Of a stretch of 42,596 nt of DNA, positions 11,448-23,500 are shown one piece after another; position 1 is the first letter of the stretch; every line of letters starts with the position of its first letter. The DNA is from an uncultured bacterium (GTDB lineage Bacteria; Nitrospirota; Thermodesulfovibrionia; Thermodesulfovibrionales; Thermodesulfovibrionaceae). The stretch spans positions 1 through 42,596 of the forward strand of contig CALLBR010000016.1 in assembly GCA_937998865.1 (NCBI GenBank), written 5' to 3'. A model generated the notes under the pieces. The model worked only from the letters and a program-made list of their open reading frames with translations, was not told the origin of the DNA and ran no database searches. The position numbers and the translations under genes are program-made.

Positions 11448-11588
11448 GATCACCTCCTATTTTTTATATCAATTTTAACATACTTTTTTGAAATTAAAAA
11501 TCCTGATCTTTAAAAAACCTTAATTTTAGGTACTTTTCATGGGATGAATTATCACATTTCTCCCCTTTTCTACTTGAAAGTTTAAAAA

Positions 11589-11870
11589 GACGAGATTGCT
11601 TCGCTACGCTGTTGCTTCGCTCGCAATGACCTCTTCATTGTCATTGCGAGGCTCACGAAGTGAGCTGTGGCAATCTGTCATTGTGAGCACCCGAAGGGTG
11701 CGTGACAATCCGCTGTTGCAAGCAGCCGAAGGGTGCAAAGCAAGCCCTTTTATCCTTTTTTTCCCAAAAAAGTGGAAGACGAGATTGCTTCGCTACGCTG
11801 TTGCTTCGCTCGCAATGACAATGGAATAAGTCCTCGGCAATAACAATGGAATAAGTCCTCGCAATGAAAG
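11589..11870. repeat. Second cluster of modular hairpin repeats
   Basis: Positions 11454-11948 hold no supported gene. A 42-bp element beginning GACGAGATTGCTTCGCTACG occurs twice without a mismatch (11589-11630 and 11778-11819). Between them, from 11640, are direct units with the flank GTCATTGCGAG or GTCATTGTGAG and the cores GGCTCAC-GAA-GTGAGC and GCACCC-GAA-GGGTGC. These are the same cores as at 1909 and 1836. A decayed unit follows at 11712. Two short TAAGTCCTCGCAATGA-type copies follow at about 11829-11868. Open frames here are repeat translations. Confidence 0.88.
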
Positions 11871-11948: not shown

Positions 11949-13661
11949 TTAACTGAATTTGTTGGTAATAGGGAATCTCCAATCTTTTTCAAGTGATACT
12001 GAAGAAATTTTTATTCCTGGAGGAGATTGTCTTCTTTTAAATTCAGCATTCTTAACCATTTTTAAAACTTTCTTCACTATGTCTTTTTCAAATCCATATT
12101 TAACAATTTCCTCCTCACCCATATATTTTTCAATATGTTTTTTAAGTATTTCATCAAGCAAATCATAGGGTGGAAGAGTGTCTTGATCAGTCTGATTTTG
12201 CTTTAGTTCTGCTGAAGGAGGCTTTGTGAAAACTCTTTCTGGAATTCTTCCCCTGGAAGCCCATCTGGCTAATTTATAAACTTGCGTCTTATAAACATCC
12301 TTAATTACAGCAAAGCCACCTGCCATATCTCCATAAAGAGTGGCATATCCTACTGCCATCTCTGATTTATTACCAGTTGTTAGAACAAGCCAGCCAAATT
12401 TATTCGAGAGCGCCATTAAAATGTTTCCTCTGATTCTGCTTTGAATATTCTCCTCTGTTACATCAAAAGGTAGATTCTTAAAGACCTTGGAAAGCCTTTG
12501 AAGATATTCTTCAAATATTTCAGTTATGGAAATCTCTATGAGCTCTATACCCAGATTGTCCACAAGTTTATAAACATCTTCTCTGCTTTCTTTTGATGTA
12601 AAAGGGGAAGGCATAAAAACTCCTGTCACTTTATCCTGTCCCAAGGCTTCAACTGCCACAACAGCTACAAAGGATGAATCAATCCCTCCACTTAGTCCCA
12701 GACATACATGTTTAAAACCGTTTTTTTCCACATAGTCTTTTAAACCTAAAACAAGAGCTCTAAAGATCTCTTCTTCTTCGCTTAAAAGGGAAAATTTTAA
12801 GCTTGAAGTTGAAGATGATAAATTTCTGCTTATCTTTTGTCTCTCTATAGGAATATTTATGATTTCTACATCTTTAAGATTTACCTCACATCTTATTTTT
12901 GACTTTCTCATCCTTGCTCTTGTTATTTCCTCTAAATCAATCTCCAAAAGGAGTAAATCTTCCTCAAAAGCCTTAGCTAATGCAATAATTTCACCAGATG
13001 GTGATATAAGCATGCTCCTTCCGTCAAAAACTTTCTCATCTTGTCCCCCCACTGTGTTTAAATAAGCAATGAAGACTCCCAGATCATAAGCTCTTATAGA
13101 TAGCATTTTGAGTGTTCTATCAAATTTGCCTATTTGGAAAGGGGAGGCTGATATATTAATTATCAATTCAGCAGACTTGCAAGCCTGTAAAAGACTTGGC
13201 AAGGTAGAGTGGAATATATCTTCACCAATATTAAGTCCGAATAAGATTCCTCCATAGTTATATACAGGCGCTCTTTTACCTGACTTAAAATATCGCACTT
13301 CATCTATGAGGCTGTAATTTGGTATGTAGATTTTGTGGTAAATGTCTATTAACTTTTCCCTTGCTAAAATAGCTGCAGAGTTGTAAAGATCATCCTCTTT
13401 AGTGGGCAAACCTAAAATTAGGATGAAATTTCCTACTTTTTTAATGATTTTATCTAAGGAATTTTCTGCCCTTCTTATGAAGGAGGGATAAAATAACAAA
13501 TCCTCAGGCATATATCCTGTTATAGCCAATTCTGGAAATACAACTATCTCTGCCTTTTCCTGAATAGCGCTTTCAGTAAAGCAAAGTATTTTATCCAAAT
13601 TTCCTTCTATATCACCAACTGTAGGATTTATCTGACAGAGAGCTAATCTTAGAGGTTTCAT
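11949..13661 (-). CDS. nadE: NAD synthetase of the glutamine-dependent architecture, glutaminase cysteine replaced
   Basis: The final step of NAD synthesis: amidation of nicotinic acid adenine dinucleotide. In 570 aa an N-terminal nitrilase-type glutaminase (about 1-270) precedes the ATP-binding synthetase (SGGIDSS P-loop near 327, then LTTGNKSEMAVGY and the C-terminal PPSAELKQNQTDQD). The nitrilase triad shows Glu44 (FPELAITGY) and Lys110 (YHKIYIP). The nucleophile site, normally ICED, reads NIGED with Gly146 (codon GGT at 13224-13226, one base from TGT). The glutaminase is therefore probably inactive and the enzyme may use free ammonia. It follows the upstream gene after 1 bp with no clear ribosome-binding site. 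Confidence 0.9.
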   Translation of the reverse strand: MKPLRLALCQINPTVGDIEGNLDKILCFTESAIQEKAEIVVFPELAITGYMPEDLLFYPSFIRRAENSLDKIIKKVGNFILILGLPTKEDDLYNSAAILAREKLIDIYHKIYIPNYSLIDEVRYFKSGKRAPVYNYGGILFGLNIGEDIFHSTLPSLLQACKSAELIINISASPFQIGKFDRTLKMLSIRAYDLGVFIAYLNTVGGQDEKVFDGRSMLISPSGEIIALAKAFEEDLLLLEIDLEEITRARMRKSKIRCEVNLKDVEIINIPIERQKISRNLSSSTSSLKFSLLSEEEEIFRALVLGLKDYVEKNGFKHVCLGLSGGIDSSFVAVVAVEALGQDKVTGVFMPSPFTSKESREDVYKLVDNLGIELIEISITEIFEEYLQRLSKVFKNLPFDVTEENIQSRIRGNILMALSNKFGWLVLTTGNKSEMAVGYATLYGDMAGGFAVIKDVYKTQVYKLARWASRGRIPERVFTKPPSAELKQNQTDQDTLPPYDLLDEILKKHIEKYMGEEEIVKYGFEKDIVKKVLKMVKNAEFKRRQSPPGIKISSVSLEKDWRFPITNKFS

Positions 13662-13662
13662 A

Positions 13663-14217
13663 CTATATGGTTGGGCAGCATTTTATAGCATCAAAAGCAT
13701 AAAGTATTCTTTTCTCCTTAGGAAGCTTATTTACATCATAGGGAGTAAAATTAATAGATGGCAAAAGCTTAAGGAGTAACTCTTTTTTTGGAAAGTCTGA
13801 GGTTTCTTTTACTTCACCGGATAAAATATCAATAAGCCTGCCCTCTTCACCATTAGTAATAAAAGCGAAAGGAATTTGATAAGGTTCCACAACTCTACAA
13901 AAAGCAAGCATGAATCTCTGCCATGAGTCTATTGAGGTAGGCGTGCATTTTATAGCAAAAATTATCTTGTCCTCTAATCTTATTAACAAATCAACAGATG
14001 GATAAAATTTCTCTTCCTCTGAGATGATGATCTCATAAATCTTATTTATTTCCATGTCACTTAAAACATAGCCCTTATCTATTAGTTTGTCAATCATTAA
14101 CCTTTGAAGATAACCAATGTTTTTTAGAAAGATTTCTTCCTCTTGTTTAATAATCTCTCCGATAAGGATTTCTCTTTCTTGTGGACTCTCTGGTTTTTTA
14201 CCTAAGGGGATTTCCAT
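13663..14217 (-). CDS. Small protein resembling the HsdR N-terminal (PD-(D/E)XK-like) domain
   Basis: A 184-aa protein. The start at ATG 14217 is chosen because AAAGGAGGA lies five bases upstream; the longer frame from 14244 would include that site. The middle resembles the type I restriction HSDR_N_2 domain: GY(VLS)DMEI, PSVDLLIRLEDKIIFAIKC, then PYQIPFAFITNGEEG. Asp76 and Lys90 fit the PD-(D/E)XK core, but the acidic residue two before Lys is Ala88, so nuclease activity is doubtful. No restriction or modification genes are nearby. It is transcribed with nadE after a 1-bp gap. A nucleic-acid-binding or structural role is a guess. Confidence 0.6.
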   Translation of the reverse strand: MEIPLGKKPESPQEREILIGEIIKQEEEIFLKNIGYLQRLMIDKLIDKGYVLSDMEINKIYEIIISEEEKFYPSVDLLIRLEDKIIFAIKCTPTSIDSWQRFMLAFCRVVEPYQIPFAFITNGEEGRLIDILSGEVKETSDFPKKELLLKLLPSINFTPYDVNKLPKEKRILYAFDAIKCCPTI

Positions 14218-14249
14218 TTTGTCCTCCTTTTGTTTTTGTCTCATTTTAA

Positions 14250-22501: not shown

Positions 22502-23500
22502 TTAACATATTCTTGGTAGTTGTTCTCCTGGAAGCATATCTACTATTCTTGTTCCTCCTATTTGCGTTTTAAGTAAAACTTTGTTTCCTTCAGAAATTAC
22601 CTCTCCAATTATAGCAGATTCTTTTCCAAAAGGGTGATTTCTCATTAATTCAACAATATTTTCTGCCATATCTGCCTTAACAATGGCAATGAAAATTCCT
22701 TCATTTGCTACATAGAGTGGGTCAAGGCCGAGAAGTTCACAAGCTCCTTTTACTGTGTCTAAAAGAGGAATCTCTTTTTCATATAGCAATATGTCTTTGT
22801 TACCCTCCAAAGCCAGTTCCTTTAGAGTTGTAGCCACTCCTCCTCGGGTTGGATCTCTCATTATTTTTACATAGGGAGCAAAATTATTAAGTACCTCTGC
22901 AATTATACCATTTAATGCTCTTGTGTCACTTAAAACAGGTGGTTCAAAGGTAAAACCATTTCTTTCACTCATAACAGCAATGCCGTGATTTCCAATGGAG
23001 CCACTTATTATAACTTTATCGCCAACTTCTATTTTTTGTGCAGAAAGTTCAATACCCTCAGGCACAATTCCTATTCCAGAGGTGTTTATAAATATTCCAT
23101 CGCCTTTTCCTTTGTCTACCACCTTTGTATCACCGGCAACTATTTTTATATGGGCTTTTTTAGCTGCTTTTGATATGCTGTTTAGTACTCTTTCAAAGTG
23201 TTCCATTGGGAACCCCTCTTCTAAGATAAAACCTACCGTAAGATAGAGAGGTGTTGCTCCCACCACAGCAAGGTCATTTACAGTACCATTTATAGCAAGG
23301 TCACCTATGTCTCCACCAGGGAAAAATATGGGGGAAACAGTGTAGGAATCGGTTGTTATAGCTACTTTACCTGAATGATTAAGGGATACTATGGCAGAGT
23401 CCATCAAAGAGGGAAGATCAAAAATAGGTGCTATATATTTTTTTATTAGCTCATGCATAAGTTTACCGCCACTTCCATGTCCAAGGAGTATTCTATTCAA
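22502..23500 (-). CDS. hypE: Hydrogenase maturation factor HypE
   Basis: A 332-aa PurM-like ATPase that dehydrates the thiocarbamoyl group on its own C-terminal cysteine to make the cyanide ligand of [NiFe] hydrogenases. The sequence starts ILLGHGSGGKLMHELI and ends LPGEQLPRIC with Cys332 as the last residue. The ATP-binding segments DSYTVSPIFFPGGDIGDLAINGT and MRDPTRGGVATTL are intact. No other hyp or hydrogenase genes lie in the window. It overlaps the FN3 lipoprotein gene by 8 bp. Confidence 0.94.
   Translation of the reverse strand: MNRILLGHGSGGKLMHELIKKYIAPIFDLPSLMDSAIVSLNHSGKVAITTDSYTVSPIFFPGGDIGDLAINGTVNDLAVVGATPLYLTVGFILEEGFPMEHFERVLNSISKAAKKAHIKIVAGDTKVVDKGKGDGIFINTSGIGIVPEGIELSAQKIEVGDKVIISGSIGNHGIAVMSERNGFTFEPPVLSDTRALNGIIAEVLNNFAPYVKIMRDPTRGGVATTLKELALEGNKDILLYEKEIPLLDTVKGACELLGLDPLYVANEGIFIAIVKADMAENIVELMRNHPFGKESAIIGEVISEGNKVLLKTQIGGTRIVDMLPGEQLPRIC

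Follow-up and report, generated by a model that had tools for sequence, protein, structure and literature searches.

We report a two-domain, glutamine-type NAD synthetase (NadE) that has, very probably, recently lost the use of glutamine: in one Thermodesulfovibrio-like species the only NadE has glycine in place of the catalytic cysteine of its glutaminase domain, and comparison with related sequences points to an ammonia-driven enzyme with a vestigial glutaminase half. On this comparative evidence we would regard the feature as a real, recent and lineage-specific loss in a single species, and as a moderately surprising one. The gene lies in a window of 42,596 nucleotides, which is contig C16 (CALLBR010000016.1) of a genome of 1.75 Mb in 46 contigs that is 99.93% complete (G000) and is the one genome representing its species. 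The sister species, whose NadE is 91% identical, is represented by genome G095 (contig CALDSV010000044.1 at the nadE locus).

The sole NadE has the architecture of a glutamine-dependent enzyme

The nadE open reading frame runs without interruption. Its product scores 683 bits (cut-off 479) over residues 3-569 against NF010588, the profile for two-domain NAD+ synthases, with a CN_hydrolase domain (residues 5-250) followed by an NAD_synthase domain (residues 300-545). Both the architecture and the curated score are thus those of glutamine-dependent NadE, which upholds the full two-domain length ascribed to the protein in the initial annotation. That annotation had also proposed looking for another nadE; neither protein search nor the Pfam profile recovered a second NadE or NAD synthase in this nearly complete genome. 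The other, weak PF02540 matches were ruled out as a second NAD synthase, being GMP synthetase (GuaA), an asparagine synthetase-like protein and MnmA. The features of the locus are as follows:

11949-13661, minus strand: nadE, two-domain glutamine-type NAD synthetase, 570 aa, sole genome copy (ORF, NF010588, domain matches, genome searches)
12852-13661, minus strand: glutaminase (nitrilase) half, codons 1-270, constraint apparently relaxed (CN_hydrolase, polarised changes, branch omega)
11952-12791, minus strand: NAD synthetase half, codons 291-570, conserved (NAD_synthase, near-invariant columns, omega)
13530-13532, minus strand: codon 44, triad Glu, kept (alignment)
13332-13334, minus strand: codon 110, triad Lys, kept (alignment)
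13323-13325, minus strand: codon 113, Leu (78/78) to Ile (alignment, codon comparison)
13305-13307, minus strand: codon 119, Phe (78/78) to Ile by two base changes, TTT to ATA (aligns with M. tuberculosis Phe130)
13224-13226, minus strand: codon 146, Gly (GGT) in the column of the Cys nucleophile found in all relatives (alignment, codon comparison)
13134-13136, minus strand: codon 176, genus-invariant Tyr to Gln by two base changes, TAY to CAA (polarised changes, codon comparison)
13113-13115, minus strand: codon 183, basic residue (Lys/Arg) to Thr (alignment, codon comparison)
13663-14244, minus strand: upstream gene, 193 aa, weak HSDR_N_2 similarity (stop 1 base from the nadE start)

The aligned copy of the small HSDR_N-like gene is interrupted by a stop in at least one congener.

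The nucleophile and other conserved glutaminase residues are lost

The nucleophile motif of this NadE reads NIGED. Its Gly146 aligns without gaps with the cysteine of the ICED motif in the solved glutamine-dependent synthetases 5kha, 3n05 and 4f4h, and all 78 other NadE in our alignment (14 from the genus, 20 from the order or mainly from it, 44 from elsewhere) have cysteine in this column, Gly146 being unique among the 79. Codon 146 is TGT in 11 of 11 full-length congeners, including the sister species, which confirms both the glycine at the nucleophile site and the single-base difference between TGT and GGT that had been proposed from the letters of the window. A degenerate DNA pattern for NIGEDIF matched this genome alone among 296 genomes of the phylum. 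The original claim could have fallen to a cysteine elsewhere in the protein aligning at the nucleophile column; the alignment with the 78 other NadE places none there, and the claim stands. Three cysteines of the glutaminase half, Cys27 (13581-13583), Cys161 (13179-13181) and Cys258 (12888-12890), are new in this species and lie outside conserved motifs. Their gain alongside the loss of the catalytic cysteine is probably a coincidence.

As the initial annotation had it, the triad residues Glu44 and Lys110, both invariant across the alignment, are retained, and so are Glu147, Ser173 and most residues of the fold. This point understates, however, how far the glutaminase half has decayed, since three universally conserved positions besides the cysteine are lost (L113I, F119I and K/R183T): all 78 other NadE share Leu113 and Phe119, both isoleucine here, and position 183, Lys or Arg in 79/79 NadE, is threonine. 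The aligned counterpart of Phe119 in M. tuberculosis NadE is Phe130, which helps to define the glutamine-binding site and forms tunnel constriction 1 (PMC6946656). The protein therefore lacks both a complete Cys-Glu-Lys triad and the glutamine-binding and tunnel phenylalanine of glutamine-dependent NadE, and should not be annotated as glutamine-hydrolysing. The domain contains no indel and no stop. Of its near-invariant columns 3/37 are broken; two far more distant NadE have three or four such columns broken, with the nucleophile intact in both.

None of the 71 near-invariant columns of the synthetase half is broken, and the SGGIDS ATP-pyrophosphatase loop (here SGGIDSS) is present together with the other near-invariant residues expected of an NAD synthetase. 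Along with the absence of a significant omega shift (see below), this bears out the earlier description of the synthetase half as intact.

Constraint appears relaxed in the glutaminase half only

We polarised the changes in nadE since the split from the sister species with ten congeners. In residues 1-270 this branch accumulated 17 amino-acid changes to the sister's 5, and at outgroup-invariant sites the counts are 10 and 2; the ten genus-invariant sites changed here include C146G, L113I, F119I, Y176Q and K183T. With 10 unique changes at otherwise genus-invariant glutaminase columns, this species ranks first in the genus, although its branch is among the shortest. The synthetase half shows 5 changes against 2 on the sister branch (2 against 0 at outgroup-invariant sites), and 5 changes in about 300 residues are ordinary against the neighbouring genes. 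Twelve of these neighbours (3341 aa) together carry 40 changes here against 53 in the sister, which makes nadE an outlier. The five-fold excess of the glutaminase half (17/270 versus 40/3341, p 4e-7) is approximate, because nadE had ten outgroups to polarise its changes and the neighbours two to four; restricted to the same set of four, nadE as a whole has 25 changes against 9 in the sister. The similar synonymous divergence of the two halves (39 versus 36 codons) makes recombination unlikely.

We also fitted codon models (custom script, F3x4 frequencies, fixed tree). With six taxa the branch omega of the glutaminase half is 0.32, versus 0.041 elsewhere (LRT 22.7, p 1.9e-6), and omega = 1 is not rejected (p 0.26); for the synthetase half the corresponding values are 0.11 and 0.046 (p 0.2). 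With twelve taxa the glutaminase half gives 0.24 versus 0.066 (p 1.4e-4), and the test is still significant once codon 146 is removed (p 2.5e-4). These p-values overstate certainty somewhat, because control genes of the window, with mild rises in branch omega, reach an LRT of 7.4, and other terminal branches in the twelve-taxon test reach up to 7.9 (one congener among six tested). The neighbour-gene count is the simpler and stronger control. Taken together, the substitution data indicate relaxed purifying selection confined to the glutaminase half.

These data bear on the proposal that codon 146 is a sequencing or assembly error and the real enzyme an ordinary glutamine-dependent NadE. The species has one assembly and a single base separates GGT from TGT, which would favour an error; against this, the signal persists when codon 146 is omitted, ten genus-invariant sites are changed rather than one, synonymous divergence is normal, there is no frameshift, and the neighbouring genes are intact and evolve at normal rates. 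A lone base error is unlikely because of the several companion changes, two of which took two base substitutions each, and we consider this explanation extremely improbable.

Alternatively, the glutaminase half could have been repurposed by adaptive changes for a selected function, such as a different amidase chemistry that uses another nucleophile, or a ligand sensor. The preserved frame, the retained triad Glu and Lys and the three new cysteines would be in keeping with such a change of role, but the branch omega stays below 1, as is compatible with relaxation, and the new cysteines fall outside the conserved motifs. A sensor of glutamine is unlikely in particular because the glutamine-binding phenylalanine has also been lost. 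Repurposing seems to us highly improbable.

Glutamate synthase is broken in the same genome

The sole glutamate synthase (GOGAT) of this genome is a pseudogene with three stops and one frameshift (contig C30:21403-24186), and its long frame is intact in all ten other congeners that are at least 90% complete. The lesions are distributed over two subunits:

C30 21403-22539: GOGAT glutaminase subunit, two in-frame stops
C30 22521-24186: GOGAT synthase subunit, an inserted base near 22709 and one more stop

Glutamine synthetase (glnA) is present and GuaA keeps its nucleophile cysteine (GICYG); glutamine is therefore still made and used elsewhere in the cell. A general loss of amidotransferase cysteines is likewise ruled out by GuaA, and by the asparagine synthetase-like protein, which has a cysteine two residues from the called start. 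The glutamate dehydrogenase profile PF00208 gave weak matches across the genus and nothing stronger.

Also absent from this assembly are Amt, present in each of the other ten congeners with a completeness of 90% or more, and PII proteins and nifH. In the sister genome (G095, C34 79963-96442) a 16.5-kb block holds nif, two nifI-type PII genes, amt, glnK and a gene for a NifA-like regulator, and includes or adjoins the end of the glutamate synthase genes. The counterpart of this block in our genome falls exactly between two contig ends (the start of C37 and the end of C30), and the continuation of the glutamate synthase gene was on none of the contig ends examined. Since the sister block lies between contig ends here, the absence of Amt, PII and nif may reflect one deletion or one unbinned contig, and we have downgraded the idea of three independent losses. 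As evidence on nitrogen physiology this absence is suggestive only; the nitrogen argument rests on the GOGAT lesions, because these lie inside a contig. In another congener (G052:C1:1794659-1795798) the Amt match falls inside an unusually long open frame of 882 aa, possibly a fused transporter, and no separate PII match was found in that genome.

The broken GOGAT would suggest a broad withdrawal from assimilating nitrogen through glutamine at low ammonia. From the pseudogene and from the absence of Amt, PII and nif, the latter perhaps due to one missing contig, we can only infer an ammonia-rich habitat. It is also conceivable that the altered NadE has no tie to nitrogen physiology and is a slightly deleterious polymorphism or a strain-specific fixation by drift, the enzyme keeping sufficient residual or ammonia-driven activity. 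Terminal branches do generally show some nonsynonymous excess, a single genome is at hand, and the missing Amt, PII and nif genes may be an assembly gap; yet the excess here is restricted to one half of one gene, and GOGAT is broken independently in the same genome. We regard drift of this kind as improbable. We lean instead, with modest confidence, towards a natural two-domain NadE caught shortly after the loss of its glutaminase, as one element of a broader breakdown of glutamine-dependent nitrogen assimilation in this one species, in which GOGAT is broken and Amt, PII and nitrogenase have possibly been deleted.

Discussion

Among the options raised in the initial annotation, loss of the glutaminase with reliance on free ammonia emerges as the best reading, as suggested by the relaxation of one half, the lack of a second NadE and the intact synthetase half; reliance on a separate amidotransferase finds no support. 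Glutamine-type NadE can also use free ammonia as a substrate (PMC6946656, PMC3376133). With the nucleophile cysteine gone, the thioester intermediate and glutamine hydrolysis should be impossible, and the synthetase half would adenylate nicotinate adenine dinucleotide and amidate it with free ammonia diffusing in. The engineered M. tuberculosis NadE variant C176A reportedly keeps its ammonia-dependent activity. The loss of the glutaminase may be tolerated here because internal ammonia is high. The glutaminase half presumably stays free of frameshifts because it precedes the fused essential synthetase half in translation, and an upstream frameshift or stop would destroy that half; it may also be retained through a role in folding and in assembly of the oligomer. 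If the domain became wholly neutral after the loss, an omega of 0.24-0.32 would date the event to about the final quarter to third of the branch; these values would be matched just as well by an earlier loss after which some structural constraint remained.

With glutamine-dependent NadE (NF010588, PRK13981) the protein shares its full length, two domains and all near-invariant synthetase residues, as well as 91% identity to a normal family member; it differs in the loss of the catalytic cysteine, the glutamine-binding phenylalanine, Leu113 and the basic residue 183, and in the relaxation of its glutaminase half. With the single-domain NadE-NH3 it would share the chemistry, that is, amidation of NaAD by free ammonia. 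However, NadE-NH3 never had a glutaminase half, whereas here, in a protein of 570 aa with both domains, the fused glutaminase is inactivated and still there. The enzyme should thus work like an ammonia-dependent NadE without belonging to the single-domain family.

The nearest parallel in function is offered by human CPS1, which also kept an ancestral glutaminase domain after losing the catalytic cysteine: with Ser294 in its place, the glutaminase-like domain has no activity and the enzyme takes free ammonia (PMC4655335). Judged by its residues, our NadE probably runs on free ammonia much as CPS1 does. The two differ in glutaminase class and pathway, and the CPS1 loss is ancient and adaptive while the present one is recent and found in one species. 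The laboratory variant C176A of M. tuberculosis NadE (PMC6946656) likewise has a small non-nucleophilic residue at the same catalytic position of a two-domain NadE, but it is an engineered single change, and the case described here is natural and accompanied by further decay. Our literature search, which had most subscription journals outside its coverage, returned no report of a natural NadE without the glutaminase cysteine.

The retention of the glutaminase by two-domain NadE has been put down to the usual scarcity of free ammonia in cells (PMC3376133), and an evolutionary scheme from 2012 explains the single-domain forms by gene transfer and gene loss. Decay in place would be a further route to a single-domain-like NadE, beyond transfer and loss. 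A recent natural loss, with the activity still present in a close relative, allows a direct comparison of when an amidotransferase can abandon glutamine, of what a vestigial domain still does and of whether such losses mark ammonia-rich life. If the loss does belong to a wider collapse of glutamine-based assimilation, it would be a bacterial counterpart, in the NAD pathway, of vertebrate CPS1 and would document a way back from the glutamine type to the ammonia type of NadE.

Other features of the window

Dispersed repeats with the core TTGCGAGC/CGAAGCAATCTCG occur at window positions 11587-11861 (near nadE), 1786-2001 and 1-118, and short copies of them are found on many contigs of sister species. 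Three tRNA genes lie at the contig edges (231-384 and 42211-42293).
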